Notes under the pieces: generated by a model | What the model was told of the DNA's origin: nothing | The model's input: only the letters and a program-made list of their open reading frames with translations | The model's database searches: none | Shown here: positions 38,019-63,603 of the stretch, in pieces | Numbering within the stretch: the first letter of the stretch is position 1 | How the letters are laid out: each line of letters opens with the position of its first letter | Source of the DNA: Polytrichum commune | Lineage: Eukaryota; Streptophyta; Polytrichopsida; Polytrichales; Polytrichaceae | Assembly (NCBI GenBank): GCA_950295325.1 | Contig: OX485808.1 | Coordinates: forward strand, 36,414,527 to 36,478,526 | Direction: 5' to 3' | Length of the DNA: 64,000 bases | Made by a program: the position numbers and the translations under genes

Positions 38019-38021
38019 GAT

Positions 38022-41000
38022 ATGATGGCTAATCAATCCAATATCTTGGGGCTTTGTATATTCAACATTGACTACATACAACAAATTGTGCATGAGGGGG
38101 GTGCCAAGTTTGCATTGAATCAACGCCAATGCACATGTCTTGCACAAACGCTCAAAAAATTCACAAGAACCATAGAAATTATTTTCTCCCGTACAAATGA
38201 GTTTCTTAGCAGTTGTGACTTGCTCTTGAAGGAGTTGTTTCTAGTTATTGAAAGGGCCAAGTTGTTGGTACAAGAGTGTTATGGTGAGAAATGGTGGCAT
38301 GTAGCATTGCTCCAAATCCACAATGAAGAGGCGTTCCAAGACTTGTTCATGGATCTCAAATCTTGTCATGATGATATTTATCAACATTTAAAAGGCCAAT
38401 GTGTTGGACAGTTCGACCAATTTCAAGATGATTTGAGTTTTTCACTAAGCACCATGAGTGAATCGGGAGTTGAAGATCATCTCGAATTGGTGAGGCGATT
38501 ACAAGCAACTGTAGAACCCACACATTCATCCTCTAAGAACAAGGCCGCTAGCGAAGAGTCAACGATTGCGGCATACTTGTTGAAAAGATATGACAATCAA
38601 GGAAACTATGTGAATGGTGGACAACATGTGGAGGTTGATGCACGATTGGGTTGGCAAGGCTCAAGCCCACTTGGAGAAGGTGCGTGTGGCCATGTAGAGA
38701 AAACAAGTTGGTTTGGTTTGCCTTGTGCAAAGAAGGTTCAAATTTTGGGTGATATGGAAGATGGGGACAAAAACTTCAAGAAAGAGGTAGGCATACTTGC
38801 AAGTGCCAATCACCCAAATGTCGTGAAATTCATATGTTGTGGCCGAAAGCTAGAGAAACGCAAATGTTTCATTGCTATGGAGCTTCTAGACACAAGCTTG
38901 GAGGCATTGATGGAGGAGGTATCAAATGGCGGAACAAAAACACCCTTCCCAATTCAAGTAGCTATGGACATCATCTTACAAATCGCGAAGGGCATGAGTT
39001 ATCTACATGAGAAGAAAATTGCACATCGGGATTTAAAACCTGCCAATGTATTGGTGCATAAAATCATGGTGGACGAATTGCACAAGGACAACTATGTGAA
39101 TGTGAAGTTGGCCGACTTTGGACTTTCAAAAACGGATGCGCATAGCAACATTTCTGAGAAATTAAGCCAAGGTATTGGGACGAGGTTGTATAAAGCACCT
39201 GAGCTATTCCACTACACCAACCAAAAGACAAAGAACACGATGTCTTTCGCATTGGAAAAAGTGAATGCACATGAAGCCGATGTATATAGTTTTGGTGTGA
39301 TGTGTGCAACTATACTCTCAGGAAACCAACCATTTGAAGGCAATGGTCATGATCTTCCTACAAGGCTAAGGTCAGGTGAGAGGCCATGGGTGCCTGATGA
39401 TTGTCCCAAAGCTTTGGTGTCCTTGATCAAGGAATGTTGGTCATTAGACCGAACAAAGAGACCCAAGTTCAAGGAGATTTGCACAACATTAAAAGAATTG
39501 AGAAGTTCCATTTTACGGGGAAATGTTGCACTTAGAAATCAAAAGCTGGAAAATGAGACAACCTTGTTTCAAAGGGTTTCAAATTTGCCTCAGGACGTCA
39601 TGTATTTGTGCAAACGCTTTTGGAGGGCACCAAATTTGGAGGGGAAAGAAGCTAATGAGGCCCAACATACAAGTCAAATTCATACCAAGGTATTAATCCT
39701 ACCAATATATTAAATGGTTTAGAAATTAGTTCACATCAACTTTCAAATAGGCTAACAAATATAATCAATTTATCTTGTTGTATCCATTTTCATCAAATAT
39801 TGGATCCAAATACAAATTTGAAATCTTATTAAAAGAAAAAGCGTATTCTTTTAAATGAGATAATCAAGGTACTTTGGTAGCACTCATAGAAATCACACTC
39901 TTTTGCATTTATTGTAACTTACATGTCAAAGCAATATCTAATATCAAATTTTTTATGTATGGGGTTTTCAGCTTTTTGCACCATTGTCATGGGCAAACCG
40001 AATACTTCCATCACAAGTGCGGTCCACACATTCATTACCGTCACTCCCGGTTCACTTTGTCAATATTGATAAGAAAATCTCAAACGTGTTATTTCAACTA
40101 GAATCCAATCAAATTCTAGGCATCGTCGGGATGGGTGGAAGTGGAAAGACCACTTTGACAAAGGCCATTCTTCATCGTGTGCATCAAGACTTTGAAGCAA
40201 CAAGCTTTGTGGCAAATATGAGAGACTCCAAAAACATCTTGGATATACAAAGACAATTGTTGGAGGATCTCAAGTGCAAGAAACCCATAAAGATTGTTGA
40301 AGAGGGGTTTAAGTACCTACAAGAGATATTTGAGAGGAAAAAAGTTTTTGTTGTCTTTGATGATGTTGCCTCTCAAGAACAACTCCATGGGCTAGTTTCA
40401 TCTAAGTGGAAGTTTGCTAACGGTAGCAAGATCATTGCCACAAGCCGAAATTGGCAAGACTTAAAAACAACTTGTATCTCACACAATGGAAAGATGGACA
40501 TGGAGTTATTGGAGGAAGATCAAGCAAAGGAGCTATTCTACAAGCATGCATTCTTACAACAACAACCTCAAGGGCCGCAATTTGAAATAGTTGCCAACAA
40601 AGTCATCGAAGCATGTGGTGGTTTGCCTTTGAGCTTGGAAGTATTGGGAGGTTATTTGTGTGGAGTTCAAAGGCTTAGGGTATGGCAACAAGCATTGCGA
40701 AGATTACAGAGGGGACAATGCCTTGGTGGTAGTTGGGACAACGAAAGGATATGGAGAACGTTGAGGATAAGCTACGATAATTTGGATGAAGAAGAGAAAA
40801 ACATGTTTTTGGACATTGCTTGTTTTTTTTGTAGGGATGTTCTCAAGCAAGGGATGGAAGAAGAGAAGGCGTTGAAAATATGGGATTGTGATGATAGTAA
40901 CACACATTCTGCACTTTTGAATCTCATGGACCGAAGTCTTGTGTGAATGGATTCGGATGGGATGTTGACAATGCATGATCATTTACGTGACATGGGACGT

Positions 41001-42806
41001 ATGATAGCATGCAAAGAACATATTGGAGGACAAAGAATTTGGAATTTGGATGAGTTTGAGCCCACCAAATCTAATGCGAGCATGGTAAATGAATATATCC
41101 ATCATCTTTGTCTAGTGTCATAATCATAAAGCGTCCAATTTTGATGAAATTGAGTTTGCACTTATAAGATTCTTTGTAGAAATAATATAAGGAAGTAAAT
41201 GTTTATGTTTGAAGGTTTTTTCATCAATTGAGAGAATATGAAAAAATCCATACACTTAAAAGAGTGCTGTAAACAATGATTCATGGCATGGTTGATGCAG
41301 ATGATGCAAAACGTGGAAGGTCTTCATGTGGCTGGATCTCATTGTAATTATGATATGATTACAAGTTTGGATATGGCAAACATAAGGCTCTTGCATATCA
41401 ACAATTGTGTGAGTTTCGATTACTTTTACAAAGCAATGAAAAATGCGAATAAATTGAGGTGGATGCGGATAAGCATGAGCTTTAGCCCATATAGATGTGA
41501 AGAAATTGAAGAGCTGCAACCATCATTTTCCATTTCATTCAAACAATTGCGTGTGTTCGAAATGGAGAGGTTTGTGCATTTGCAACAATTTCCACTTGAA
41601 ATTGGAACCCTTAAGATGTTACAATACCTTACCTTAGTTGATTGTAAGGCATTGGAATTCATACCGGAGACATTGGGCAACTTGACTTCATTGGTGACAT
41701 TGGACTTGTATGGATGCTCGAGCTTGAGGGAAGTACCAAAGACATTGGGCAACTTGACTTCATTGGTGACATTGGACTTGTATGGATGCTCGAGCTTGAG
41801 GGAAGTACCAAAGACATTGGGCAACTTGACTTCATTGGTGACATTGGACTTGCAAAGTTGCTGGAGGTTGGAGGAAGTACTGGAGACATTGGGCAACTTG
41901 ACTTCATTGGTGACATTGGACTTGCAAAATTGCTCGAGCTTGAAGGAAGTACCGGAGACATTGGGCAACTTGACTTCATTGGTGACATTGGACTTGAGTT
42001 GGTGCTCGAGCTTGAAGGAAGTACCGGAGACATTGGGCAACTTGACTTCATTGGTGACATTGGACTTGAGTCGGTGCTCGAGCTTGAAGGAAGTACCAGA
42101 GACATTGGGCAACTTGACTTCATTGGTGACATTGGACTTGCAAAGTTGCTGGAGGTTGGAGGAAGTACCGGAGACATTGGGCAACTTGACTTCATTGGTG
42201 ACATTGGACTTGAGTGGTTGCTCGAGCTTGAAGGAAGTACCGGAGACATTGGGCAATTTAATTTCATTGGTTACATTGAAATTGAATGGTTGCTCGAGCT
42301 TGAAGGAAGTACCGGAAACATTGGGCAACTTGACTTCATTGGTGACATTGGACTTGAGTTGGTGCTCGAGCTTGAAGGAAGTACCGGAGACATTGGGCAA
42401 CTTGACGTCATTGGTGACATTGGACTTGAGTCGGTGCTCGAGCTTGAAGGAAGTACCGGAGACATTGGGCAACTTGACTTCATTGGTGACATTGGACTTG
42501 CAAAATTGCTCGAGCTTGAAGGAAGTACCGGAGACATTGGGCAATTTGACTTCATTGGTGACATTGGACTTGAGTTGGTGCTTGAGCTTGAAGGAAGTAC
42601 CGGAGACATTGGGCAACTTGACTTCATTGGTGACATTGAACTTGCGTGATTGCTCGAGCTTGAAGGAGATACCGCAGACATTCGGCAACTTGACACCATT
42701 GGTGACATTGGACTTGCAATGGTGCACGAGCTTGAAGAACGTACCGGAGACATTGGGCAACTTGAATGGGTTCTCGAGCTTGAATCGATGGAATCTATGG
42801 ACTTAA
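38022..42806 (+). pseudogene. Kinase-NB-ARC-LRR immune receptor (PNL type), one internal stop
   Basis: Exons 38022-39689, 39972-41084 and 41301-42806 join in phase 0 with GT-AG introns, giving about 1,428 codons. Residues 1-150 form a helical region (ERAKLLVQEC, EKWWHVAL) resembling the HeLo/DUF1221-type bundle of plant MLKL proteins. The kinase follows: LGEGACGHV, CAKKV, HRDLKPANVL, ADFGLSK, APELF. NB-ARC has GMGGSGKTTL, VFVVFDDV, GSKIIATSRN, CGGLPLSLEVLGG and FLDIACFF. TGA at 40944-40946 interrupts the frame just before MLTMHDHLRDMG (MHD motif), and the frame then stays open. The LRR exon has 15 uniform repeats and ends abruptly beside repeat F. Such receptors sense pathogens and act inside the cell. 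This allele is probably broken or truncated. Confidence 0.88.
41667..42746 (+). repeat. 72-bp tandem array encoding 15 LRRs
   Basis: Fifteen 72-bp units encode ETLGNLTSLVTLDL, then ~C~SLKEVP (24 residues), followed by a partial sixteenth. Variation is mostly at two or three solvent-facing positions (YG, QS, QN, SW, SR, SG, NG). Blocks SW-SR and QS-C-WRLEEV recur out of order, as unequal crossing-over produces. Because 72 is divisible by three, several other frames on both strands are also open. Those frames are artefacts. Confidence 0.95.
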
Positions 42807-42891: not shown

Positions 42892-42895
42892 TACA

Positions 42896-42919
42896 GGGTG
42901 CAAGCATGGTAAAGTGGAC
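42896..42919 (+). repeat. Left terminal inverted repeat of the 17-kb element
   Basis: Pairs with 59836-59859 in inverted orientation with one mismatch (fourth base). A second short block with similar content lies about 20 bases further in on each side. Confidence 0.85.
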
Positions 42920-43559
42920 AATCTTTGATCCTTGCACCCATTCATTGTAAGTGAATTCACCACTTGTTGATATCATGGGAACGCGGGAGGGAACATGGGA
43001 AAACAAAAAGGAAACCATATGGAACATGGACCTTTATTCCACTCTATGTCACATAAAGTATCCATATGTTTATTATAAGCGTACTTTAAGTTATATGCTT
43101 TCAAGATCCAGTGGTTTCAAAATGGAAAGATCCCAAGTTTAATGATGACCGGGTGAAGCTCTACAATTAATGAATAATTATAGCCTTCTTAAATATGTGG
43201 GAATCACGTGGCATCCATGTAAGAGGAGGTGGGTAAGGGCGGGTTAAGGGGATGGGCGCGGGATGAATCCCGAGATGGATGACATCAATACCACAATGCT
43301 TGCAAGATGCCCGCCCATGCTTGCAAGACGTCGAGGCTGCTGGCTCCTCACTCCACCACCTCATGTGCCGTTGAAGCGATTAGGGTTCCAGTAGATCTTG
43401 TCTGTAGCACAAGTTTCGGCTAGCTTAGGGTTTAGGGTGCACTTTGAGGACGAAGGAGCAGATTCAAATGGAGGTATGCAGCTCTAACCTAAATTTTTGC
43501 ATTTGCATGACATCTTTGTTTCTCTGTGAACATTGTTGTTCAAAATTTTCTTTGTTAAC

Positions 43560-46500
43560 ATGGCACCAAGGGCACGCGTCCAAAGATTGAAAGTTGAGGG
43601 TAATGGTTTGTCATCAAGAGAAGCTGAGAAAATTCGAGTTGCTACTCTTGTTCTTGAGAGGGAAAGTTGGACAGTTGATGATTTTGCAAAGAATCTTGGT
43701 GTGAGAGACTATGGGCTTGATACTTCGAGAGATTTAGGTGCAGATGTAGGAATTGACAATGATGCTATTATCGCATATTTTGGGCCTCGAGGTGACCAAG
43801 GGTGGAGGTTGGATTCAAACTACTTGTCACAGGAGGATATTTGTGATTGTAGAAGGCAAAGTCAGCTTGTGTATGGTCATTTGCCATCAAATGGGTTCTA
43901 CTTGGCCACATTTTTGCGAGCATGGCTAGCTGAGAAGAACAACCACAAAGTTAACTGGGCCAAGTTTGCTTATGATGCTACCAAACGCCAGGTGACTCTA
44001 AGGAAAAATGTAGAGAACAAGAAGATGAAAGTTGAGTCTGGAGATGCAACACCAACCTCCTCCAAACAAAGCAGTTTCTCTGATTGGATAGACAATAAGG
44101 TATTCATTCTAAACATTCGAACAAGTTTGTTGTTGCAAGTCTCTGAATAGGGTTTAGGGTTGCAAGTCTTTGGAAAAATGTGAATCATCATGTATGCATG
44201 TCGGACAAGTGGTATGTCCAAGAGGTTTACTTGGATTTGATTGCAGGTAGGTATTTCGGAGCTCTTGTTGTGGTGATCTGATTTCTTGTGGTGTCTTGCC
44301 GGTCAGCAAGAACAAGAAGTTATGCGTAGTATTGCGGAGCTCCTATTTGGTATTTTTGTGTTCTCTTGCTCGTCTTGTGGTGATCTGCAACAAGGTAGTT
44401 GTGTTTTGTTTTCTGGAAACTTGTCTTGCATGCATTACCCAACTTTTCGCGGATAGATAGCTGCCAATATTGCAAGAGAACGTGTTGCAGATAGATAGCT
44501 GCGACAGGGTAGTGCATGTATTTGTTTTCTGGAGAGTTGGCTTGCGATGTCCAAGTCTGTTAAGTAAGATAGATAGATAGATAGGTAGTGGTGGCAACTT
44601 ACAAGGTAGTAGTGGTTTTTGGTTGCTGGAGAGTTGCCATTGATAGTAGCTTGTACATTTTTGTCTCTGGTGGGCAACATACTTGTAAGTGAACATATGT
44701 GTATAAATGAAGAATCAGTAGTGACAATTTACAACATTTGTGTATGAGTGTTGAAAGATGCGGAGATTTTGTCTTGGGTGGGGCAAGTTTACTTTGCGTA
44801 TAGTTCTTGGACATTGGATCGATGGTTGGGCATTCGAAGGAGAGGTCAAATGGTAGATCCTGTGACCTAAATAACTGATATGGAACTGGTTCCCGACGAG
44901 GTAACATCTATACTCATTGCAAAGAAATGTAATCCCTTCCCAAAATTAGACAGCCTGCTTCTGCAATGTGGACTAGAGTACACACTCTGCTTTCTGAGGA
45001 CAGAACTAAATCTGCATGGTTTTCTTCTAGAACTGATGGATCCGAGTGTGGGAACTTGTCTTTACCAAGCAAGTCGACACCTGTAACTTGCGGTAGTATT
45101 CCCTCTGCAACTGAGACTTGAATACACCGAAATTGCTGGATTAGTAGTTGTGGGATCTGAATCTAGCATGCATTGATAGATAACTGTGATAGAGTAGTGT
45201 TTTTTTTTTGAAGATTTGTCATGCATTACCGATTTCCACATAGATATAACATAGCTGTGACAAGGTAGTAGTGTTTGATTTCTGAATGGGAGAGGTGCAT
45301 GCATTCCCAATTTGCAGATAGATATACAACTTTGACAGCTTGATAGTTAGTGCAAGTCCATGACAAGAATAAGTGTTCCTTCTAAGGGGTGGTTTGACAG
45401 GGTATATTATTTGGCTATGAATTGATGTTTGTGCTGAATTCCAGCTTTCAACATTTGTGTAGCAACACTCCAATAATTCATCATTCAATCACCACCCAAA
45501 TTTCAAATTTCTGCAGTTAGATAGCTGTGACTTTGTTGTGGTTTTTTGGTTTTTCTGGAGAGTTGTCATGCGTTACCCAGAGCTGAATTTTTTGCAAAAA
45601 GATAGGTGTGACAAGGTAGTGTTTTGTTGTTTCCGTAGAGTTCCCATTACACAAATTTCAAATCTTGCAAATAGATAGTTGTGACAAGGTAGTGGGTGTT
45701 GGTAGAGAGTTGCCATGCATTAGCGATTTGCAGTTAGATATAATATAGCTGCTACAAGGTAGTGGTGTTTGTTTTCTGGTGACTTGCCTTACATTACTCA
45801 AATTTTGAAGGTAGATAGCTGTGGCAAGGAAAGTGGTTGTATTGTGTTTGGAAAGTTGCCATCACCCAAAATCTGGCAGGTAGATAGCTGTGACAAGATA
45901 GTGGATTTTGATTCAGGAGAGTTGCCGTTACACCCATATTTTGCAAATAGATAGCTGTCACAAGGGATTGGCTTTTGTTTCCCAAGAGTTGCCGGTACCC
46001 AAATTGGATATTCAGCAGATAGATAACTGTGAGAGAGTAGTGTACTTTTTTTGAAGATTTGTCATGCATTACCGATTTCCACATAGACATAGCATAGCTG
46101 TGACAGGGTAGTAGTGTTTGGGGTATTTCCAGGACCTGTCACTATGGTATGCATGAGGACCATGACTAACTTTGGGCTGCTTTTGTCTAGGGCATGGACA
46201 TTGCGCAAGAAGATGATGCCAGTTGTTTCATAACTGGTTCCAGGTGTGCAACAATTTTTCTTCCTCACCAGTTGCCGAGAGCACGCGCTTTGCTCGCTCA
46301 AGCAGAAGAAGAAAATCTATTTGCGTCCAAAAAACGGACGACCTTGAATGACAATGAGGTCGACAATAGGCAGCGTGTGGCGGATCTTGCTGCTGAGAAG
46401 AGATTCATCGCAAGAGAAGAATCTGACATTAATTCTACTTACTGTGCAAGTCTCCACCAGATTTCAAGGTATCACATAGAAATTTCGGAGGCAGAAGAGA

Positions 46501-48700
46501 AAGCACGATCATTGGTAATGACTGCAACTCCTGAGCAGCTGCAGGCAGTTCGCGCCGATGTTTTAAAGATCACTAACCAGTTGAAACTAGCAGAAAGGGA
46601 CTCCGACTTGCAGAAATATTTGCTTGACAGGATGCGTAGCAAATTGGAGACTACAGAAAAAAACCTGGAGGAAGAATCCACGAAGCTTGTAGAAGTGAGC
46701 TCAAAATTGCTTGACTTTGATCACGGTCAGGAATGTAATAAGCTCTGGATCAGTGCCTTAAAGGAGCAAATACAACAAATGTCAGAGGGGCAAGGTGTAA
46801 CAGGACGTCCTGTGCCAATGGATGAAACAGATGAGTTACCAGCAGGATCCGATGCTGTGTTGTTTGTGCGTCCATGCCCTGTGTGCGGGAAGTTCTTTAG
46901 TAGGAAGTCTTTTTGTGTCACTAGTTGCGGTTGCATGTACCATCCTTTCTGTTTGGGAGCGCATTTGGAAATATTCAAGAACTCAGTTTGTGCAGGCCGT
47001 TCTTGTGGTAAGTTATTTGAGGATGGCATGATCGAGCTCTTTGGCTACCACCAACGTAGGATTGCTCTGAAGAAGCCTAAGGTCGAGAGGGGTCACAGTC
47101 GGCATCGAAGTTTGACACCTGATTCAACGAACACCAGACCAAGTAAGTTACTCCCCAATTATGTACACAACCCCTCCATTGTAGGCTATTGACATGGATG
47201 TTCTTTCCTATTCCTCATTTGTTGTTAATTTTGGACACTTGCTTATGAGACAACATTGGCATTTCTAGTCCGCAACACTTGATTATAGTTTTGGCACTTG
47301 CTACTATATCGTGTCAATTTCCTATAATATGCAACACTTGGTTTTAGTCGGTAGCACTTGCTACTATATTATGTGAATTTTCTATAATATGTAGCACTTG
47401 CTTAAAGTCGCTAGCACTTGCTACTATATTGTGTCAATTTTCTATAGTATATAGCACTTGCTCTTAGTCCCTAGCACTTGCTACTATATTGTGTCAATTT
47501 ACTATAGTATGTAGCACTTGGTTTTAGTTGCCTCGCTGGCTAATATTTAATTGCACTTTGCTATTTTCATTTCTACTTGCCATATTCTAAAAGCACTAGC
47601 AATCGCTTACTTGCACTTTGGATTCCATGATACAACTGGGATTTCTTGAAACCCACTAGAGCCACTATGATACTTCTTGCAGTTCTTCCGAGGCACTTTC
47701 AACAATGTTGTATAACTTGTTGTTGGAAGTGGAACTTTCTCTGTTATTTCCCATCACTGGAGGGTAAACATGTCTGGTTATGCTTTAAAACCTCCCCAAT
47801 CACTGCCTTCAACTGCTTCAACCAGTTCATATGTAAGCAGCAGCAGTCAGTCGGTTTGTTTGTTCATCACAGTGATCGGGGAGATTTTTGGGCATGATCG
47901 GTAATGTTCCTGCAATGATCGGTAATGTTCCTGCAGTCGTGAACTTCAACCGGTTATTTCTCAAACTCAACTGTTTCATTTGTAACTAACTGCCGGTTCT
48001 CCCCAATCATTGTTGCTGACTGTTGATTTTCTTTTCACATTTTTTGGCAGAGTGCAATAGTGACGATGTAGTAGGGATTGATGATGAAATGGCACCCGAA
48101 GAAGCAGTTGATGGGGGTGAAGGTCATGCACTCTTTGGAGTAAGACCAGCTGTTGGGGATGCACCCATTTTGCAGTTGCAAGGTACTGAAATCTCAATAG
48201 CAAATCCAGAAGTTGTTACAAATTTGGTTGAAAAACTTCATGATTCAGGAAATCATGTGGTACCGCCTTCCATTGATCATCAATTATCGTCCACTGGTAT
48301 CTTGAATGCAATCCATGCTGCAAATGCCGAACTGAGCACCCAAGCAAACTGCACAAACCCCCAGCTGTGCCCAGCAGTGCCTCCAATTAGTGACACTGGA
48401 ATCAATTGTACTGCACCAAGCAGTCCTGCATCTATTGTAATGGGAGAACAATCAATTGAAGGAGGGGAGAACATGATAAAGACACATTTGACTAACGAGG
48501 AAGTCAAACTTTGGTTAGCCAAGGGTCAATATGTTCCACCAATTGAAAAAACACATGCTACAGTTGAAAAAAAACGTGGCAGGCCCCCTGGTTCTACGAA
48601 GAAAATGCCTGCCTCCAGGGTCGGTGGTTACGAGAGAGGCATGCAAATGCTAGAGGAGCGTGCGAAGGGTATATTGGGACGCACTATAACAAGAGGGTGA
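43560..48700 (+). CDS. Coiled-coil, RING-like zinc finger, AT-hook protein of the element
   Basis: Exons 43560-44099, 46191-47142 and 48051-48700 join in consistent phase with GT-AG introns to give about 713 residues. The N-terminal 180 residues are unassigned (MAPRARVQRL; WTVDDFAKNLGV). Exon 2 has a long charged helical region (QLKLAERDSDLQ, KLETTEKNLEEES), likely a coiled coil. A Cys/His cluster follows: CPVCGKFF, SFCVTSCGCMYHPFCL, CAGRSCGKLF, a RING- or PHD-like zinc site. The acidic exon 3 ends with KKRGRPPGSTKK, an AT-hook core (RGRPP) that binds the DNA minor groove. It lies convergent to the transposase gene inside the same termini. It might aid DNA binding or act as a ubiquitin/SUMO ligase, but neither is shown. 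The start codon choice is tentative. Confidence 0.75.
44380..46130. repeat. Degenerate ~70-bp satellite in intron 1
   Basis: About 15-20 irregular copies of a unit with GATAGATAGCTGTGACAAGG, then TAGTGGTGTTTG and GGAGAGTTGCCATGC. Clear copies occur at about 45520, 45595, 45668, 45810, 45875 and 45945. A small GATA microsatellite sits at 44565-44584. The array nearly fills this 2.1-kb intron. Confidence 0.8.
47240..47530. repeat. 60-bp tandem repeat in intron 2
   Basis: GCACTTGCTACTATAT recurs at 47294, 47354, 47414 and 47474, an exact 60-bp period. Weaker edge copies lie on both sides. AGCACTTG also recurs midway in each unit, so the array has a roughly 30-bp sub-period. Confidence 0.9.
47876..48010. 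mobile_element. Short MITE-like copy of repeat F in intron 2
   Basis: Ends TGATCGGGGAGAT and, inverted, TGATTGGGGAGAACC. The interior has the CAACCGGTTATTTCTCAAACTCAAC block of the family in shortened form (no more than part of it is quoted here). A direct 19-base repeat (GATCGGTAATGTTCCTGCA) occurs near 47897 and 47917. The target duplication is unclear. Confidence 0.55.
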
Positions 48701-50879
48701 GAGTAATCTTTGAGATATTTCTTTGTGATTTTCGAAGCGTTTCTTTGAGTAATCTTTGAGTCCATTGTTGGAAAACATATATTATTCTTTAACTTACAGT
48801 GTATTGTGATTTTTCATGTGCAGCAAGTCCAAGAATATATGACAATGAGGCATTAGGGGACTCGATATTTTGTTTTTATCATTATCTATAGCAACAACAA
48901 CCGAAATTTTATATCTGGCTGTCAGCAGCTACGGTTGTGTATGAAAGTTAGCCATCTACAACAGATCATCAAACTTGGATAGAAAGACCATGGACCATCA
49001 AATTCATCATCATGCCTCCAGTAGTCGGCATTGTCTATGGCTCTTGCAGCCACAATTTCTGCGCCATTTGATGGCAATAGACAAAAAATTAAAGTTGTAA
49101 GGAACTTCAGAACTCACATCTTTTATGAGTTTCACACTTTCCAGCTTGGCTTCAGCTACTAGCTTCATCTTGACATTTTCTAGGTAGCTGTGTTTTTACT
49201 CTTCCTGCATAGGGTTTTTAGAACAGACCACTCCCATAGGTGGGCAGACATAAAAATTTAAAGTAGTCAAACAACCAGGTTGATTTTCATCATAAGTTCA
49301 AAGTCCCCGTGTAATCTCCCATTTTGTGTTAACACTGTCTACAGAATATAGGTTTGTACACATCTGCACAGAGTGCTGAACCCTAAACCCTGCTCCACAA
49401 ATCGTTGACAGGAGGAAGAGGAACTAAACTTAAGATCCAGGTAATGTGCATTTTCCCCAATATATGTTGGAGCTCAACCTAGAAATGAGAAGTTAAGCAT
49501 CAAGCTGGTCGTTCGAAAACAAGAGGCAGCCTCTCCCACCAAGAATCTGGATGCCAAGTTTTCAACATTACCCAACAAATGACCCCTAGTGCAAGCAGTT
49601 CTTGCAGCCCGGAAGTGCACAACATGTAATTAAAGAACATGCAAAGAAGCTTGATTTGGAGATTCTTCAGATTTGGGGGAAGAACATGAGCTAAACGTGC
49701 ACAAGAGCATTGCATACAGAGAAAAGGAAATCCAGGCCTCTACCACACCCACACTTCTCCCCCGCTTCAGTAGCTATCAATTGGGCCAGCATGCTCTTGG
49801 GTGGCAAAGACTCAACCAATTCGCACCAAGTGTCACTAAGATTGCAGAGTGCTGCTGAAATCGGTTTGGATAATTTCACTGCAACACAAGTCTCACAGAA
49901 ACTCCAATTCTACTATTCCGAGCTTCAACTTCCTTGGATGGCGCATCCCAACTGGGCAAACAAGGAAAATTAGCATCTAGAGTAAAGTGAGACACGGAGA
50001 AGACCGCAAGGTCACTCACAAAATGGTCGCCTCTTTCTCTACCTCTCGGTGACTCCTCATGTGTGGTTAGATGCATATAGCTCAGACTCTCATTCCACTG
50101 GAAAATCACGCTCTGCAAGAAGATTCATGGTATAGTTTTGTTATCTTGGGAAGCCAATTCTGGGGCACATGCTCTCTGTAAAGAGCTTCTCATTTAATAG
50201 ACTCAATTGCAATCCTCTCCCTCGCCCTTCCACCTTCTACACATCTACACATCTCCATGCCAAGATTGCAAATTTAGGAAGACCAACAATGGTGACACTG
50301 AAGTGCAGTGAGGTTTGTCTTTGTAATTTAGTGAATGCGAGCCTTGTACAATAAAAATGCACATTGCATATCCACACTAAGTTAGGCCGTCATCTGTTTT
50401 GAAATGCTACAACAATCACTGCATTTTCAAGATATTCAAGACACTGCACTTATTTCTCAAATGGGAAGTTAGAATATATTGTAAGGTAACATTTGTGCAC
50501 TTGAGCTTCCTGAGTCGGATCCTTACAAAGAATGCATTGCAGTGAGCCTATGCACAACCAAAATCTACAACAAAATGAGAGATTACTATCTAGTGAACCA
50601 GATCATGGATCAATAACAAAGTTATTCACCTACAACCTGTAAACCTGTGCTCTCCTTCACCTACAACCTGTAAACCTGTAGCAACATGCAAAGAAACTAG
50701 TGTAAGCATTTATGAAACTACAAGGTTAAGATAGGATACAAGCATACTAGAAACTGAATTAATCAATTACACTTTTGAATATGCAACCGGAACTTGTAGA
50801 AAATAAAAGTAGAACATGTCAAATTGAAAGAAGGTCATCACCTCAATTCACGTATCTTTGTATTGCCACACCGATTACG
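48701..50879. other. Intergenic region between the two convergent element genes
   Basis: About 2.2 kb, where both genes should terminate. AATAAA-like signals appear, for example AATAAAAATG near 50350. Short frames at 49500-49980 on both strands show no domain. No separate gene is supported. Confidence 0.45.
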
Positions 50880-53800
50880 TTATGAGATGATGTTGCTCAT
50901 GCAATCGAGAGCATTCAACACCACACTTCTGACTTCTGATGACATGCCATATCTTTGAAGGCCCTTCTTGGCATATGTTGGTAACATTAGAAAATCAGAA
51001 CATATTACGTGGTGCGAACAAGCATAAGCTGGTCTGTCTTTGAGAATTTCATACATCACATTTGGGCCCCTTCGTCCACTCGATATTCTTGAATAGTAAA
51101 ATCCTCTTACTAGCATATCACCTTTAGACCATGTATTCCCCCAATCGTCAACAAAGGTTTCAGGATTACTATAAAGGACTCTATCACATAGAATAACAAA
51201 AAAAGGGTCCCCTTTTTCAACACCATCGCACATTACAGCGACATTAAATCCGACTTCTACTTTACTTGCCTCTTCCTCAAGGTCAATGTTATCATCATCA
51301 TTTTCTGCAGCTTCCAATACATCGTCTTCATTTTGTGAATCAAATTCCTCTTCGAGATTGTCCTCTTCAATATGTTCAGCAATTCCTTCTGAAGCAACAT
51401 CGACAATTGAGGCAGCATGGCATGGGGCATTCATTGCAACTTGTCGAACCTACCAATGTACATTGACAGAATATCATGAGTTCATGAACAACGTGGCAAG
51501 AGATTGACTCCTAGGCCCACTTAATCAATATTTTGGAGCCACAAAGAAATAAAGGAAGTACTTGGAATAGTGTAGTATAATACCTCTGTTAAAACCTTTG
51601 GTGACAGTGTCACGAGCTTCCACTCCTTCACGTGTGATGTTTGAAGGCACAATTCACTATTATCATCCATGCATTCTTTGCAGAAGCAAGCGAGATGTCT
51701 AACCTTCAAAAGAGTGATGTCTCGATGTGAAACAGATACAACAGAATGTAATGATCGAACACCTTCAAAGTAGCTGCAGTCATATTTGTGTCGGCGGTCT
51801 ACACCTTCTATCAGGTGGAAGAACCGCACAACATCTCTTCTTGCAATCCTGTAATCTTTGAGCCCATTGCGTACAACTGCTTCGCTAGTTTGTCTACTCT
51901 TGCAAAATGCTACCACATCTGCAGCATTATGGAGTTTAGGAGTTTCCATCTTCATTTGTTCCTTTTGAATTGATTGTTTCAAGATAGCTCCTGCACCATC
52001 ATGCACCCCTTTTCCATGTCCCGATCCAAAAAAAGACCAAACCATTTGGCAACCATTTGGAAGTACTAAATCCTCCCTGGTTCGTTGTTGATACCTATTG
52101 CAATTTGAAAGAATTTAAGTAAGGTAATGAATCTGTAAATGATTACCACATACCCCAAGCATATACCTCTAAAAATTATTGTGCCTTGAATGAATGAAAA
52201 ATAACAACAATAAGCTAAAGTATACTTACATGGCAACTTGGTACATTGTCTTCCTGGACTTAAATTGTGCAGCACAACCGTCACTCCACACAATATGTTG
52301 GTCGTACACCAAACCACGGCCTCGAAGATTTCTCCAGTGCAAGTCAAAACAGTGCCGTACAAAAAGTACATCATGATTCATATCATCAGACATGTAGTAA
52401 TGATACTCTGTGATAAGCTTACTTGCGCCAGAATTAGGATTTTGGATGTATTCTTCATTCCACCGGTAGAAAACATGCACTAGTATTGTTAGTTGAACCG
52501 AAGAGAAATGCATCTCTTGGATTTCGTTCCATTCCGCGAACGAATAATTCTCGGCGAAATCAACAACTGATACTACTGAGGAAGGCGGGAATGTGGCCAG
52601 GCACACCCGGTATTGCTCTGCTTCCCACTGAGCGACAAAATTATGTGTGATGAACTTGGTCAGTCGAGGTGTAAGGTAACTTAGGAACTGTCTAGCTAGG
52701 GTATACTTGTACTGTAATCGAAGTACTAAGTACTCTTTCCCTGCCCTTGTCTTACCACCTTTCACTTTTTGGTAACAATTCCATTGCATCAAGCTCTTGC
52801 TATCTCCACTCAACTCTAAAGGACAATTAACTAGCATATCAACGCCACATTGACCACATTGTCCCATGAGACAATCCAATTTGTGCCATCCATCTTCCTG
52901 CATAGGGCAGAGTACCGACATCCACATATCTGTCAATCCTCCAAAATGTGTTGTATGAGCTGCACAGACTCCATGTACCCCACCTTCGCAGACATCGCAA
53001 GTACATGCACAATTAACACCATGCATACCTTTTGCCGCTGATCTCATATTGTTCCAACCATGAAGTAGCTCCAAAATCTCGACATGTTGCTTGCAGGCAC
53101 AAGTGTTTCTTTCTCTTAACCTTCTCACATAATATGGTTTGAGTTGCTCAAAAGCTCTCAATCCAACTTTCAGAGATGGATGGTGCGTTTTGAACCGAAC
53201 GTAGAAGTCCAACTGCAAGTGCAAATGAATGTGAGAATATGAGAGAGTAAGTATGTTTGTGGTTCACAACACATGATAGTACTTCAATAGGCTAACAAGT
53301 GACCCCAACACTTACTTAGACGGAGATTCACTTTGTCAATATACGCGAAACGAGTAAGTGCAATTTCCACTAAAGTAGACAATCAATATGAAATGAAAGT
53401 GAATATGTCACTTGATATTACAAAGCATGGTGTAGCTAGTGCTGGCCTACTCCAGCAAGTGATAGTGCAAAATGAGTAAGTGCAATTTCCACTAAAGTAG
53501 ACGATCAATATGAAGTGAAAGTGAATATGTCACTTGATATTACAGAGCATGGTCTAGCTAGTGCTAGCCTACTCCAGCAAGTGATTGTGCACATTTACAA
53601 TTGATAAAAAAAAATTGACTGTAAGATGTTGAAATGGAAAGTGAGGAAATCAATCATAAAGTGCAAGTGCAACATCTTGATTACAAGTAAGTGAAAAAAC
53701 AGTGCTTGAAATTGATAGCAATATTATGTCTAGCATGACACGCATTTATTCATTCCGCAAGTGGAAACAAATAAATGCACATGGTGTATCTACTTTGGAA

Positions 53801-54845
53801 GGGTCACTATTCACAAACATTCAAGTAGATGTCCAACAAGAGGGTAAACGAGGAACTCATTGGCAAGTTAGGGAGTAACCTGAGATTCTTGAAGATAATG
53901 CTTCGGATGCTCATTGAACTGCCACGGTCCTGTTCTTTGGTATAGAATGTCTTTCGATATAGGGGAGATTGTTGTTGCTGTATCCCAAAAACTCACAATC
54001 TTTTGTCGATCATCTTCACTAACACGGTCATTTCTGGTTTTTCTTGGTATTCCGCCCCAAAATTTCTCGCCAACATCATCAATGTATGCCCTTCGAACTA
54101 CAGCTTTCCTCAAAGCATGTCTTGTTGCTTTTAAGGTGCGTGCCAAGAACAATTGACTAGGACCATTAGTAGGGGACGCAACTGCTGATAGCAATGCATT
54201 TCTGTACATGGAATTTTCAGTGGATTTGTTTGCCACCATTTGGCTGTAGGCTTGTTGGACACTACTCACGAGTTTTAGTTTTTCTTCGGTTGCTTTAGTT
54301 TCCTTCATAAAACTGGGAAGCAATCCTATGATTCGTTCGTCTTCTGCAAACCGCCTGAGCACATCTTTCTTCTCAACGACTGTAAGCCCAGTGGACCGGG
54401 AGTTTAGTCGATGCACAAGCTCCTCTACAATTGAGGCACACTTCCTCCACCTCCGAACACGATTATTTTCATAGGGGTTGTCAACTCCAACAATGGTAGC
54501 ATTTTCAGCAATACTTTGTTTTCTTTGTTCCTCACGCATCCGTTTTTTGGATTGTATGTCATCATTTCTTGTTTTTTCTCTACACCAAATGAGCATAAAA
54601 CAATGTAATATTGTTAATATTTTGAGTTGAAGTGTTACCATCAAAACTATTGAATACTTGCTTACATGACAAAGACCATGAAATGCCAAAATAAATTGGA
54701 TATTCAAAGGGAGTGAGTATATGGCAGAAGAGAAACTGTACCTTTCAACTTCATCTTCTTGTCGATATAGACGTTGTTCCGCTTTCTCTGCAACCAAGTC
54801 CCGTCGTTGGGCAGCAGATAGTCGTTTATTCTTGTTGTTTCCCAT
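50880..54845 (-). CDS. DDD-type transposase candidate (Sola-like)
   Basis: Five minus-strand exons join in phase with GT-AG introns: 54845-54742, 54579-53880, 53212-52230, 52076-51584 and 51449-50880, about 949 residues. The N-terminus is basic (MGNNKNKRLSAAQRRDL) and helical. Exon 3 has a Cys/His-rich zone (NTCACKQHVEIL; VNCACTCDVCEGG; CGQCG), then SVVDFAENYSF and VWSDGCAAQFKSRK. Exon 4 opens into FFGSGHGKGVHDGAGAILKQ. The three Asp in these blocks form a plausible D..D..D triad. Exon 5 has a BAH-like segment (GDPFFVILCDRV; FVDDWGNTWSKGDML). The SDG..QFK and HGKG..DG pair is common in uncharacterised eukaryotic transposases. It would excise and insert the surrounding element. No frame breaks are seen. 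Confidence 0.75.
53352..53595. repeat. 122-bp direct duplication in transposase intron 2
   Basis: Two tandem copies begin at 53352 and 53474 (GAGTAAGTGCAATTTCCACT), differing at a few bases. Both contain GAATATGTCACTTGATATTA. Confidence 0.9.
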
Positions 54846-57800
54846 TTTATGAACCCCTTCACAAGAAAACAGATGACTAAGACCTCTTTACTTAGGTGGA
54901 TAGTAGGAGACTCGGTGTCCAGTGAATACGGCTGAGGACATTCCTGGTCAAGCATCAAACATAACGATGAATGTACTTGCAGCTTTATGAGCTAAATAAC
55001 TGTGTGACTTACAAAGAGAAGTAACCGGAAATTGGTAAAAAGACCTCTACGACTTCATAGAGCAGTTGTTCACATCTCCATCAGCAACTCACAGCAACTG
55101 ACTTCGAATTCACCAAAATATGCATCAAATTGAACTTGTCCTCAAAATATCGAGTTTAGTGTCCAAAACATGAGACTTCTTAGATTGTTGCATTGTTGCG
55201 CGGTTGGCAGCTGCAGCTCAAAATTGTACAGGATGAGCCTGTCAACATAATTGTATAGCAAGTCACTGCAATTCAGCTAATTGATCACCAAAGTTTCCAC
55301 CAAACCTATCTCACCTCTCTTCGTCATCTATGTCCACCAATGACATTTATTTACACCTGTGTGGAGGTCACCTCATAGATTGACGGATGAATACGGCAAC
55401 TCACATCCTCAACTACCAGAACATTCCAAGAACATCCTGTTAGCTTATATGCAGACCTTAAAAGTCCTGCAGTTGTCATAGGATGATCATATGTATGTAA
55501 TGACCCCTCAAATCGACCTCTCTAGTCTCACAGTAGGAGCAAACAACAGATTATCTACGTGTGGCAACATGCACTTACCTGCTGCTTGCCAGAAATTAGG
55601 TAGCACTGCAAGCTCCACATACAAAGTTGAATGTACATATGTTCAATCAGTAATACCATTCTAGAACTAATTCAAGAATTGCTTGCCCATACTTTCCAAA
55701 TAGGATGAAATTGCACATAGGATAACAGTCACATAGCCTAAGTGGACATGCTCTTCATGCATTTCAGACACATCCTAGACTGCTGTAAATACTTTGAAAT
55801 ATTAAATTATGTTATGCTGTAGATATCAAAATCAATACATTTCAGTTTCAGAATTGACGATTCGAAAATGAAACACCTGCGTACAAGAAAAATATGAGGA
55901 AATATAAACTAGCCTTTACTGTTCTGTTGAATGCAAATTTCCTTAGAGAGGAGGTTCACTCACTATTTGGATCCCAAGCAAAAAAAGCCGAGCCTCTGCA
56001 TATAATCTATAAGTATATTCTAAGGATTGAAGGTTCTCTATTCAGGGTCACATCAATTCAACCATTGATATGATAATGAATTGGAGTACTAGTATATCTA
56101 GTGAACTGGGATACTATCTCGGCCTTCGATTATTTATTTGACATACCCATCTCTTTGGTGTGTGTCACCGTTACAGGTAAATGTAAAATTTGTTCCGTTA
56201 TGTACTGGCTGCAGGGGGACTAAGAGCTACAGGCATTATAACTTGATCTGGCTCAAAGCACGATACAACAACATATGAACTGCTGAGATCAGCTCCAGCA
56301 GGACAAAAGCTAGAAAATGTGAAACTTGTGGCTTAGAAATTCACATCACGACTTTCATACTCTATGGGTAATTTTCCTCGATCAACAGCATAAATGAAAA
56401 CTTGCTACCAATTTATCTGTGCCTTTGATCATGTGAACATCAGTGAGTGTACATTGTAATAATCTTGAACGGTGACATGACTTACTTTACCCGTTGGAGA
56501 AACTCCATTCACTGAAACAGTACGCCAATGGCAGCTCCAACTCCTCTTCGAACCATCCTGAAAACGAAACAAGTATTGGAATTAACCCTTAGGTCCCTTT
56601 CTCCTTCAAAGGATCGGGCAACTGCAACTCCTCTTCGAACCATTTTGAAAATGAAAACAAGGTTTGGAATTTACCCTTAGATCCCTTTGTCCTTCAAAGG
56701 ATCGATTAGCCTCAGTATGAACAACCAGAAAATTTGTGCGAGTAGTTTGTAAACCCGATTCTCATGCTAGGGTGCGTTAGAATGGCCGGGGTCTGCTCCA
56801 ATTAGGATATTAATTCTCTTGATCAGAAAGTTTAATACCAGCAAGTAGGTTATTTCATGAGATGTGTGCAATAGCTGCACAAAGGCCTCTAAATTTGTCC
56901 TCTACATTTTGTCTTTTTAACCATATTTTGAGCTTTCAAATTTTGGAATCAAGTTGAACATCTTTTGAATTCTCAAAGTGTCCTTCGTAAATTTACTCAA
57001 AGAATTGTGTGCTTTCCATACTTCAATAAGCACACGGGTGTTCAAAAGCATTCAAGACTGATGTTTTAATAAGGCATGCCTACCTCATCAGGATACTTAA
57101 TACTTAAATTCACAATCTAATCATGCTGGACAGTAGACACCTCTGACAATTATTTGACCATCTCTAAATACAAAAAAATGGAATCTCCACACCATGCGAA
57201 TCTAACATTTCCATCTCCACACAACTGACCTAAATTCTCAACCATGAGGCTTGAAACAAGGGATCCCATCAATCCAGTAGATGTCCAAGAAAAATTGTGC
57301 ATTTAAATGAAGGAGCCTACCCTACCACAGTTGCTTGAGATTTCCCTAAATGACTTAAAGCATCCATACCAGGTGGAATGAAAACTATATCACCCCAGCC
57401 TGTCTCCTCCTCATTGCTCTGCACAAACCAAAAAAATTATGGGTTTACCCACGATTCCAGCATAATTTGAAATTACTCTACTTGAAAATGCAGAACCTTC
57501 AGAAACTTTAAATAAAGCTTGTGGAGGCCCGATATGTCAACATCCTAACATTTTCTTTCCAACATATTGAAACATCTTGCAATACTACGGACATGCGCAG
57601 GCACAGGAAATACATATCTTTGAGTATAACAATGTCACATATATCACTGTCACTTTGATGGTTTGAAACCATAACTTGGAGATAATTTCAATATTATCCC
57701 TATAACCATTTCTCATATATTCTACTCTAGTCTGTCAGGGCCCACTACATAAAAAGACAATTGGAAGTAAGAAGTGGTCTACACACACAAATATGACTTT

Positions 57801-58900
57801 CATCATAACAGAGTGGCAAATGTACCTCCATCCTCAAAACATCCTCAAAGCTGCCCACCTGCCAGACGAAACCAATATATATTCTTCAAGACAGGCTCTC
57901 AAATGCAAATTGAATGCAAAGACGATGACAAAGAGAAACAAATGATGGGCTAAGGGTTTGGCCAGTATCAAATAGCAAGGATCGAATCCACATACAATCC
58001 AGTCTAGTTCCTAAAACACTAAGTTAGCCTGGCCAGCCACATTTAGCTTCAAAAGAAGTTGACTTGGGTGAAAGACATAGTGTCCAGATACTCTTGGTTC
58101 AACGTCTACTATATACATGGGAGCTTCATTGTAGTGATCAATAGTAGGAAAACCCACAAATAGCATCAAAAGGATAGGAATTGATTGATGCAGCTACTGA
58201 GAATACATGCGGATTTTGTGACTGAAGCACACTAGTAAAGTAGATGTAACAAAATATATCAAAACAAAGACAACACACCTGTATATCTGTATTGACCCTT
58301 AATGCAGGGTTAACTCTTTGCTGTTGTTTAAAAGCACACTTTAGTGCACTTTCTAGATCCTCCTGTAAGAAGACAATTAAACATAAGGACGGTATATACA
58401 GAGCTGCATTCTCGATCATATAACCCGCAACCCCACTGGAACCCCAAACCAAACACAGCCAACTGGAAAACTCCAAAGAATTGATGATGACATCTACTTA
58501 TCTTACAACAGCCTCAACATAATCATCACTGCAGATTACAATAAATCGACCATAAAATCCATTCCTTGCCATTCCTAACACGAAACTAGACAAATCCCAA
58601 GATCCAACCCTATGTGCTGCTACAATGTAGGAAAAATATCTCAACCTTCCAAAGACCGGGAGAGCAGCTCTTCCGGATCGGATTTTGAAACTCACCCCTC
58701 GATCTGCATATAGTGGATGTGACAGTCTCTACCTGTCTGAGACTGAGAAAGACACGATCGTTTCGTTCCGCTTGCCACGATTTGTTGGTCGCCTCACCTC
58801 CGGTGCAGCTCCTTGGTGTAGCTCCTCCAGTGCGGCTCATGCGGCTCCTCCGGGTCCCTAGGGTTATCACGAACTGAGTCCTTCAATATCTACATATTAA
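54846..58900 (-). other. Upstream part of the 17-kb element, possible third spliced gene
   Basis: About 4 kb before the transposase start. Short minus-strand segments bounded by good acceptor and donor sites are seen: DLESALKCAFKQQQ with RVNPALRVNTDIQ (about 58363-58279), VGSFEDVLRMEV (about 57859-57826), and SNEEETGWGDIVFIPPGMDA (about 57420-57361). One more may lie at about 56567-56490. They could be small exons of a third gene or a captured host gene. I do not recognise the protein and cannot confirm phase across all joins. Confidence 0.3.
56531..56706. repeat. 87-bp tandem duplication
   Basis: CTCCTCTTCGAACCAT is followed by GAAAA and CCTTCAAAGGATCG in two adjacent copies about 87 bp apart. 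It overlaps one of the possible small exons. Confidence 0.8.
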
Positions 58901-59835
58901 GGAGTGATTGTTCTTGTTGGTGTCACTTGCGGCAAGCAGAAGATACTTACTTAGAAGTCTCTCATCTTCGGACTCACATCACTACTCAACTTCTGGAGAG
59001 CCAAACCCTAGTCACAAACTTCACCGTTGGCAAAGTGAAACTCCACCCACATCAGTGCTTGGGAGAGCCCCAAACCCTAGCCACAACTTAGGACTTCAAC
59101 GTCGGGAGAGTCAAACCCTACCCATGACGGGAGAGTCAAACCCTACTCACATCATTATTTGTTGACCAACCCCACCCTAAACCTAGCTCCCATTACATAG
59201 CATCCCAAGTTGGTTGCTTTTCCTCGATCCCCCCGATCATCTCACTTGCATTCCTAGTGCTCCTTGCATTAGAACTAGTGGATCAAGCACTTTGTTCCAG
59301 CTTTGGTCAAAATTTGACTATGTAATGTTAAATTTTTTCTTGCAAATATATTGTAATTTAATTTATCATGACCTCCGTGTATATGACACTATGACAATTC
59401 TACAAAAAATGAACAAAAAATATTTAATTAACCCTTAAAATGGTACGCATAAGTATAGTTGTCAAATTTGTGTTTCATGCAGGCATTTCATACATTGAAA
59501 TGAATGGTTTTGTAGATTTTTTCTAACAAATATGTGCATATAAGTATTTTCTAGGTCATCATACAAAATTAATTATTTAATATGTTGTTATGAGATTACT
59601 TATATGTCACTTTCAACCACTTGCAAATCCTGACATCTTTGCGTAGGTGTTGAAAAATGACATATAGATATTCTAAAACACATGTTTTCTTCACTTTTCT
59701 TTCGCTCATTTGATTCTTATACAAGTGTACTATAAGAACAACATTTCTATATTCATAGAAGAATCACACTTATATTTAATAATGGTCACTTTCCAAAGGC
59801 ACCTCCAAATTTACATTGAGCGGAGCACTTTTTTG
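58901..59835. other. Right inner part of the 17-kb element, no gene
   Basis: Contains short repeated words (GGGAGAGTCAAACCCTACCC at about 59103 and 59129, with variants near 58997 and 59070), then AT-rich sequence to the terminal repeat. The possible promoter of the minus-strand genes may lie here. Confidence 0.45.
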
Positions 59836-59859
59836 GTCCACTTTACCATGCTTGCCCCC
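59836..59859 (-). repeat. Right terminal inverted repeat of the 17-kb element
   Basis: Reads GTCCACTTTACCATGCTTGC followed by CCCC on the plus strand, the complement of 42896-42919 with one mismatch. It is followed by TACA. Confidence 0.85.
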
Positions 59860-59865
59860 TACAAA

Positions 59866-60001
59866 AAACTCTCTCTAAACTAATATCCTTGGGACCGGCC
59901 GGAAGATATTAGTTTGTGAAGGATATTAGTTTACACAAATTATATGGGGGGTAACAAATACGGGGCATGTGCCCGCATATTAGTTTAGACAGAGTTTACT
60001 G
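59866..60001. mobile_element. Small hAT-like MITE, left end damaged
   Basis: Arms AACTCTCTCTAAACTAATAT (from about 59867) and ATATTAGTTTAGACAGAGTT with TACTG (to 60001) form an inverted repeat. The right end inverted, CAGTAAACTCTGTCTAAAC, resembles a widespread plant hAT-MITE terminus. The matching CAGTA is missing at the left, next to the end of the 17-kb element. Confidence 0.6.
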
Positions 60002-60344
60002 TATTTTGGGTCTGGTTGAGGTGAGTGCAAGATGCCGTCAAGAATCACGTTGTTGCCCAAGGTCAGAGTCAAATACTGTGAGAAACTTAGGGTTTTGTCA
60101 TCAACAAGCGACCGCAAGCACCGAATGCCCCAAGTGATCCGCCTATCGTCATGTTACTGATAAATTGTAAAATCATTTACACACATACAACCCTTTTCTA
60201 TTTTTGAAGAAATCAAATACCTCAAAGGTGGAGTTAACAGCTAGCTTGTTCTCATTTAGAAGTCGGGAAACATGTGAGTTGATCTTGTTGGAAATGTAGG
60301 CTGTTCACTCGATGCTGCATGTGCAACAGAAGAAACAAATCTCC

Positions 60345-60905
60345 GCTTTGATAATGAATAAGATGTTCATACGAGCTCCAGAAACTATGAGGAAAAATGG
60401 CTACAACCTCAATTTGGATTTGCTAAGATCAATTTATACTATTCAGTTTTTTAATGTTCTAGGAGAAGTGGGAAGTTTTAAAACTTGTGAGTATACTAGA
60501 AGTTGTGTGGAATGATTTGAGCACCAATGTGCATTTATTGTGTAGGCCAGGTACCAAGCGTCCATTACAAAAAAAGGGTTTTTGACACCATCTTCATGTA
60601 CTTCTAGTCCCATAAGTCATTTGGCTTCTTGGACCTTAACAACAATTCCAAATCATTAGAGTGAGTCTTTAATTTGAACATAGTTTAGGTTGGAAGTTAG
60701 TTGTTTTGCATACAAAACTTTCCATGTTCAGTAAGTTTCCAGTGCATGCTTGGAATCAATGCAGAGTTCTCATTGAAGAACTTTGTATACTGCTTCTCCA
60801 AGGACCAATGTCGTTCGTTTAAACCTCCACACTGACTCCAAGCATGTGCTAAAAATTTATCGAACATCAAAATTTTCGTATGCAAAACAACCAACTCCCG
60901 ATTAA
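60345..60905. repeat. Dispersed repeat (copy of 8465-8885) ending in a fold-back
   Basis: 60345-60762 matches 8465-8885. At its right end, GTTGTTTTGCATACAAAACT (60697) returns inverted at about 60875-60898, and words around GTGCATGCTTGGAATCAATG return inverted at about 60828-60850. A hairpin of some 200 bp is possible. The copy at 8465 has one arm only. Confidence 0.75.
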
Positions 60906-61729
60906 AATACCAGTTGAAATCAACAATAACTCTACTGGCTTAACAAAGACAACATGCTCCAGCTTACATTGCCATAATATAGTCTCAGGACGTGAACCAT
61001 GAATGTGGAATTCGTGACATATTTGAGCCTAATGAGCCATGTGCGGTCTCAAGGACGGCAGTGGAGGAGGGATGGATTGTGGAGTCCACCTCATTACAAC
61101 CCTCCCACTTTGCAAATCGAACCCCCTGTTGGTAACACCTTCACAAAGCAAGCAATTGTAGACAAATAGTTGAACCCAAAGCTTTTAAGAAGAGTTCCAC
61201 ACTTACCAACAAAGCAATCAAATTGACACCCCGTTGTGTGATCCCTGGTTCAACACCAAAATATCAAGTTAGATGTATTTTGCCATGTGACATATCCGTA
61301 TTGGTCAAGACCATGCTCAATCCGTCATGGAAACTAGCTTTCAACACTTGGAAGTGTTGAACCAAACATCCCTCTACGGTAATCAGAAACTAAAATGAAA
61401 TATATTAAAATAATTCACACATGCAGCAATAGCCCAAATGGTAGCCACCAATTCGACCATGGGCCATCTACAACAATAAGTTGTTCCTGTAAGTGCGTCC
61501 ATGTCTTGAGTTTCTTCTGAGTACTGATCTCCATAGGAGGTGGGAAGACTCGTGCAAATTGTTGTATGCACAAGGAAACCAGGAGAGATAAGACAAACAC
61601 CTCGAGTAGAAAAGCAATATTTGATTACTTGGAAGAAGAAAATACAATACAATTTTTCTTTGTGCGTGGATAGATCTGAGACAACTTGGGTAATTGTTCT
61701 GCATAAATTTTGGGCAGGGGGCAGAAAAT
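60906..61729. other. No supported gene
   Basis: Minus-strand frames at 61383-61730 continue beyond the aldolase fragment but show no convincing aldolase sequence. They may be an old intron or flank. The rest is unassigned. Confidence 0.4.
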
Positions 61730-61985
61730 AAACCGACCTTTTGCAACGCTCGGCAAGGGCCATCCAAGCCTTGAGTTGAGTTTTCTCCATCAGTGCCATC
61801 AATGGGCTGAAGGCCAGTGTCCACTTTGATCCCGGGCAAGATGCCTTGCTCCTTAACAATGTCCACAAAAGGCACTCCTACCTGCCATTACTGAAGCAGG
61901 GTGTCGTCAAACATAATTGTGTCACTAATGTACTGCACCCACCATAGAGAATTCAAAACTTGAGTACCATTCCAGACAACATCCC
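61730..61985 (-). pseudogene. Class I fructose-bisphosphate aldolase fragment
   Basis: The minus strand encodes YISDTIMFDDTLLQ, then a stop (TAA), then PFVDIVKEQGILPGIKVDTG and GTDGENSTQGLDG. These match consecutive blocks of plant class I aldolase, an enzyme of glycolysis and the Calvin cycle. One extra C at about 61760 shifts the frame from LAERCK, which is still visible in the neighbouring frame. With one stop, one shift and missing flanks it is a relic. The catalytic Lys lies outside the fragment. Confidence 0.8.
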
Positions 61986-62005
61986 AGGCATATTTTGATC
62001 CCCAT

Positions 62006-62470
62006 CTACAAATGGGGAGATCTGACTGCTGGTTCCAGATGGGCTGCTTCGGGGAGATTTAGGGCACGAACGGTCGAGATGCGAGCGTTTCCAAGCCCAA
62101 CCGGGTTGCGTGTAGATGTCTTTGGGTTTTCCTCTCTTCATTCAATTAGGTATAATCTATGGATTCCTGTAAAATGATCAGCCATTTGCCTAAAGTCTTG
62201 AACTTGAATCGGTCATATCTCAAACCCAACCGGCCCATCTGTTACTAGCAGCCAGATCTCCCCATTCGTAGGGCTGGTTGAGTTTGAGAAACGACCGGTT
62301 CAAATTCAAGAATCTAGGCAAAGTGTCGATCGTTTTAAAGAAATCTACAGGATGCACCTTAAATTAATAATGGAAACCCGAAAGGTATCAACATGTAACC
62401 AGTTGGACTCGGAAACACTTGGATCTTGACAACTGATTGTGCCCAAAACCTCCCCGGAAACTGATCTCCA
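62006..62470. repeat. Composite of inverted repeat-F copies
   Basis: A repeat-F unit (about 62049-62270, ends TCGGGGAGATTTA and, inverted, CGAATGGGGAGAT) is followed directly by a second in inverse orientation (about 62272-62465). A short inverted piece of the end lies before it (62006-62045). The two arms could fold over about 200 bp. It inserted into the aldolase-derived region. Confidence 0.65.
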
Positions 62471-62479
62471 TCTCGGGTT

Positions 62480-62580
62480 TACATAAGAGCTTTAGGTGCA
62501 GGAACCATTGTCTTATCAGACATAATTAGGTCACTAACATATTGCACCCCCTACCCACCATAAAGAATTTGAACTTGAGT
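62480..62580 (-). pseudogene. Second, more decayed copy of the aldolase-flank segment
   Basis: CAGACATAATTAGGTCACTAA and the following 60 bases parallel 61905-61970 (CAAACATAATTGTGTCACTAA), so part of the aldolase fragment exists twice around repeat F. No open frame of use remains. Confidence 0.5.
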
Positions 62581-62929
62581 ACCACATTAAGACGCTTTGG
62601 TCTGTATTCACCATTAAGGATCAACCTCGCGATGACGGCTCCATTCTATATGAACGACTTTAAATGCTTCTAAAGAACTAATGACTTGCTATTTCACAAA
62701 GAGCCATAGCAACATGCTTGGAAAGAAGGAAGGCAATGGGAGGAATCCATTGATCAGAACATTTGTGTTTAGAATAGAAAAAAATTATGTTTTCAAATGT
62801 CGATGGTTTTTCAATTCAAAGCATTTTACCTAAAGCAAGGGTCACCATCCAAATCCAAACCTCCCTAGGTATTTAATTTTTCACTTTTAGAAATTTACTT
62901 AATTTCCGGGGAGTGCTATCTTGTGAGCG

Positions 62930-63600: not shown

Positions 63601-63603
63601 AAC

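Follow-up and report, generated by a model that had tools for sequence, protein, structure and literature searches.

The window analyzed here, 64,000 nucleotides of contig OX485808.1 from the moss Polytrichum commune, raises the question of whether positions 42892 to 59863 form one mobile element and, if so, of which kind and with what cargo. On the evidence of the sequence, this stretch is probably a single cut-and-paste DNA transposon of approximately 17 kb, of the Sola kind, with the 3' end of a Tic22 gene inside. The left terminal inverted repeat (TIR) occupies positions 42896 to 42919 on the plus strand (24 bp, GGGTGCAAGCATGGTAAAGTGGAC), and the right TIR occupies positions 59836 to 59859 on the minus strand (24 bp). 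The two differ at 1 of 24 positions, and their similarity ends sharply directly after this stretch. The unstranded tetranucleotide TACA lies directly outside both TIRs, at 42892 to 42895 and 59860 to 59863, and is presumed to be the 4-bp target site duplication of this single insertion. The TIRs point outward and enclose both of the genes described below. These termini, with one mismatch and flanking TACA, had been proposed in a sequence-only reading of the locus, and they are confirmed at the level of individual bases. The left TIR and the next 20 bases can form a possible hairpin with a 9-bp stem (z = -2.64; 3 of 200 shuffles fold equally well); the right TIR gave no comparable hairpin (z = -0.79).

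The ends might instead belong to two separate insertions or be a chance pair, in which case the enclosed genes would belong to the host or to other elements; we regard this as improbable. No inverted 24-bp pair with at most one mismatch was found in 60 first-order Markov simulations. The real window, however, contains at least 500 overlapping inverted 24-mer pairs, which come from other repeats, and 17 distinct inverted pairs of at least 20 bp fill it, so that an inverted pair by itself is not special here. This abundance, the repeat-rich flanks on both sides, and the lack of a second copy of the terminus within the window (no further match with up to 7 mismatches) would suit a chance origin. 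The TACA match by itself is modest evidence, because 3 of the 17 pairs have, no more than 5 bases from the outer end, a direct repeat of at least 4 bp (TGCA, CTTAG, and TACA), against approximately 0.5 expected (0.005, the probability that two 4-mers are equal, × 17 pairs × 6 offsets). What distinguishes the pair of the element is that its similarity stops sharply, that its ends face outward on either side of two open genes, and that the 4-mers at its edges are equal; these features argue against chance, as do the 23 of 24 bases in common and the transposase-like core of the larger enclosed frame.

Several other repeats and genes were observed in the window outside the element. A fold-back structure with 429-bp arms (31468 to 31896 and 32099 to 32527) carries a CTTAG repeat two bases in from each outer end, and the 99% identity of its arms indicates that it is young. 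A LINE on the minus strand (20058 to 27226) has its endonuclease, reverse transcriptase, and RNase H distributed over three frames; its reverse transcriptase frame also matches PCIF1_WW (E = 4.1e-8), an unusual cargo or domain. The remains of a MULE transposase are located at 518 to 1430 on the minus strand, with the Pfam MULE match (E = 1.6e-6) in 1128 to 1430. On the left flank, kinase, NB-ARC, and LRR frames follow one another in a row (37965 to 42806), the last of them stopping 85 bp short of the left TACA; genes of the kinase-NBS-LRR type are typical of mosses. The LRR frame (41280 to 42806, plus strand) consists of many near-identical repeat units, and the opposite strand is also open over 458 amino acids.

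The right edge of the element adjoins a small inverted-repeat element of 140 bp (59862 to 60001), which may be of the Tc1/mariner kind, to judge from its TA and its end sequence. Its arms (59860 to 59886 and 59977 to 60003) give 27-nt inverted ends with 89% identity and TA on both sides, and no second copy of it was found within the window. The right TACA is shared between the two elements; i.e., its TA and CA double as the TA of the small element and the first two bases of that element. When the flanks of the large element are joined over a single TACA, the small element becomes whole and its end is unbroken, which fits the view that the small element is the older of the two and that the large one inserted at its edge.

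Between the TIRs, the minus strand encodes the candidate transposase (50880 to 54845), a spliced open frame of 955 amino acids in five exons (54742 to 54845, 53880 to 54579, 52230 to 53212, 51584 to 52094, and 50880 to 51449) that are separated by GT-AG introns. The gene models of this and of the second gene, gene B, are predictions drawn by eye from the sequence. In the seven long exons of both genes, the coding frame has no internal stops, compared with 10 to 25 in each of the other two frames. The earlier description of a spliced transposase candidate with an unbroken frame thus stands, whereas its length is 955 and not 949 residues. By eye, a plausible core of Asp486, Asp579, and Asp628 was recognized with the spacing D(92)D(48)D, in the context WSDG...HGKG...HDG. 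Asp486 is in VVDFAENY, Asp579 is in VWSDGCAAQF, and Asp628 is in GHGKGVHDGAGA; the hydrophobic surroundings of these residues suggest that they may be the three catalytic aspartates. The protein also has Cys-rich stretches at positions 336, 387, and 729. Similar motifs are presumably present in uncharacterized animal proteins, which offers a lead to possible relatives.

Searches with the 955-residue protein detected no significant relative and no known transposase domain in Pfam or PHROGs, and nothing significant in NCBIfam (one match, E = 0.11). The middle part of the protein, from exons 3 and 4, gave nothing significant in the PDB (two matches, E = 0.28 and 0.41), exon 3 gave no tblastn match in plasmids, and scans for related loci in viral contigs and genome contigs detected none. 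The motif WSDG..Q..HGKG was not found in viral contigs; its single match in genome contigs (L001, Bacillus) was rejected as chance, since stops interrupt the frame that contains the motif and no tblastn E value was better than 3.1. The collections searched for relatives contain no plant genomes, and the absence of a plant element from viral, bacterial, and plasmid collections is expected. AlphaFold predictions made without relatives, for exon 3 alone and for exons 3 and 4 read through, gave no usable fold (pLDDT of 33 and 34), and a literature search on the words of the transposase motif found no match.

These searches bear on the class of the element. The element could be a genuine transposon with this structure and yet belong to another or a new superfamily rather than to Sola, a reading that we judge distinctly unlikely. 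The lack of matches to known domains would agree with it, but the silence of Pfam says little, as Pfam may contain no Sola model. The duplication of Sola3 elements is TTAA, which TACA does not fit. Neither does TACA, the duplication at this one insertion, fit the AT-rich AWWT that is described for Sola2 in the available text of PMC3627910. On the other hand, 4-bp duplications and a D/D/D core are the features stated for Sola in PMC10741241, as far as its accessible text goes; there, Sola elements are mostly 2 to 9 kb in length, with some of more than 15 kb, and have TIRs of 11 to 1124 bp. Sola1 is moreover known in a moss, Physcomitrella (PMC9033089, PMC10741241; accessible portions). The element is probably Sola-like, an assignment that was made from the description of Sola, by the 4-bp duplication, the D/D/D core recognized by eye, and the absence of a known transposase domain. 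Further likenesses to the Sola elements in the cited portions of these sources are the length of the presumed transposase (888 amino acids in Sola2; PMC3627910), short TIRs within the range given above, a size of more than 15 kb, as in some Sola elements, and the presence of extra genes.

Gene B (43560 to 48700, plus strand) is convergent with the transposase gene, and both frames are open. It is composed of three exons (43560 to 44099, 46191 to 47142, and 48051 to 48700) that form a spliced open frame of 713 amino acids (714 codons with the stop counted). A RING-like Cys/His cluster and the AT-hook-like sequence KRGRPPGS were recognized by eye, and both are under the Pfam cut-off (E = 2 and 0.84, respectively). 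Gene B may be an accessory gene, perhaps one that encodes a DNA-binding protein. The earlier description of a complete DNA transposon with a 4-bp target duplication and two intact, convergent, spliced genes fits the sequence. By contrast, its size of 17 kb, its plant host, and its second gene, which had been put forward as notable, are ordinary for Sola according to the available text of PMC10741241, PMC9033089, PMC12477816, and PMC3627910. Two further exon groups drawn by eye at 48.9 to 49.9 kb on the minus strand matched no Pfam family. A short dispersed repeat has several copies in the window (47914 to 48000, 32769 to 32855, 16970 to 17052, and 62277 to 62334), one of which is in an intron of gene B.

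The right arm of the element contains a piece of host sequence that had been missed previously. Three exons on the minus strand (58279 to 58362, 57826 to 57858, and 57317 to 57418, the last including the stop) correspond to the C-terminus of plant Tic22, the product of a nuclear gene for chloroplast protein import, and still have introns between them (57317 to 58362). When joined, they match residues 184 to 241 of the 244 in the Pfam profile PF04278 (E = 1.2e-11; score, 44.9; cut-off, 23 bits). The piece represents the C-terminal end only; its splice edges follow the consensus, and its introns are intact, so that a capture would have been from DNA and not from a spliced messenger. The three exons were selected by visual inspection, and their small size prevents detection in unspliced frames or by a codon-usage scan. 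A search of the PDB with the Tic22 fragment alone returned only Tic22 chains, with nonsignificant E values of 1.1 and 1.3. The exons were absent from a codon-usage exon scan, a weak negative in that the background included the right arm that was scanned. A candidate first exon of 36 codons (58733 to 58840, minus strand) joins the Tic22 exons in frame to give 108 amino acids (E = 1e-12 for Tic22), and a Tic22 chimera with this upstream exon is possible; the PDB search with this longer frame gave nothing at E values of up to 10. No Tic22 was detected in a read-through of the minus strand from 58364 to 64000, but the method is insensitive to short exons, and this negative is weak because the Tic22 exons already identified likewise escaped it.

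Host gene sequence between TIRs, as observed here for the Tic22 exons, is the mark of Pack-TYPE transposons, and the arrangement resembles a Pack-type capture in which the capturing element is itself Sola-like and apparently autonomous. An origin of the piece other than capture by this element, either inside another element nested in it or as an older pseudogene that belonged to the locus, is in our estimate somewhat unlikely. The right arm (54.9 to 59.8 kb) is poor in coding sequence and contains an 88-bp tandem duplication, and stray gene pieces also occur outside the element, both of which would be in keeping with such an origin. The stray piece, at 61.7 to 61.9 kb in the right flank, is a lone class I fructose-bisphosphate aldolase exon with splice sites (61738 to 61881, minus strand; Pfam E = 2.4e-11), and a read-through scan of this flank detected no further aldolase stretches. 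Against this origin, the 25 longest of the 79 inverted pairs include none that clearly bounds an insert around 57.3 to 58.4 kb, and the Tic22 exons and their splice sites are unbroken.

In the preferred reading, the 955-residue protein would bind the 24-bp ends, excise the element, and join it to a target with a 4-bp stagger, here TACA at the edge of the older small element; the 3' end of a host Tic22 gene, introns included, would have come between the ends at some time. The most far-reaching version, in which an autonomous transposon of the Sola type or of a new superfamily captured the intron-bearing Tic22 end and offers it as a new chimeric gene, spliced in frame to an upstream exon that the element itself supplies, is tentative and, taken as a whole, unlikely. 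The known system with the closest cargo is the Pack-TYPE transposons (Pack-MULE, Pack-CACTA, and others; PMC8903248), which likewise have host exons and introns between their TIRs. In the available text of PMC8903248, the elements described as capturing host genes belong to the common plant TIR superfamilies (MULE, CACTA, hAT, PIF/Harbinger, and Mariner), and most of them lack a transposase; those Pack-TYPE elements are nonautonomous, whereas the transposase gene of the moss element is apparently intact. The name "Sola" is absent from the accessible portions of that source and of the review PMC13317346. Sola2 elements carry captured Fanzor1 genes (PMC3627910), and the giant elements of Ectocarpus (PMC12477816), which include Sola-1 as well as EnSpm and KDZ elements, also exceed 10 kb; these giants are from a brown alga, and their size is ascribed in the cited portion of that source chiefly to nested insertions. 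The moss element differs from the Sola elements of these accessible accounts in carrying a piece of a host plastid-import gene, and we found no report of such capture by an autonomous Sola-like element, a "Pack-Sola," in the literature searched, as far as the available texts extend. Large Sola elements, Sola elements in moss, and Sola elements with extra genes are already known, so that the novelty lies in the Tic22 cargo. If this reading is true, an intact element of Sola-like type that carries host sequence would extend gene shuffling to another kind of transposon and to bryophytes, and it would provide a testable case of capture by an autonomous element itself.
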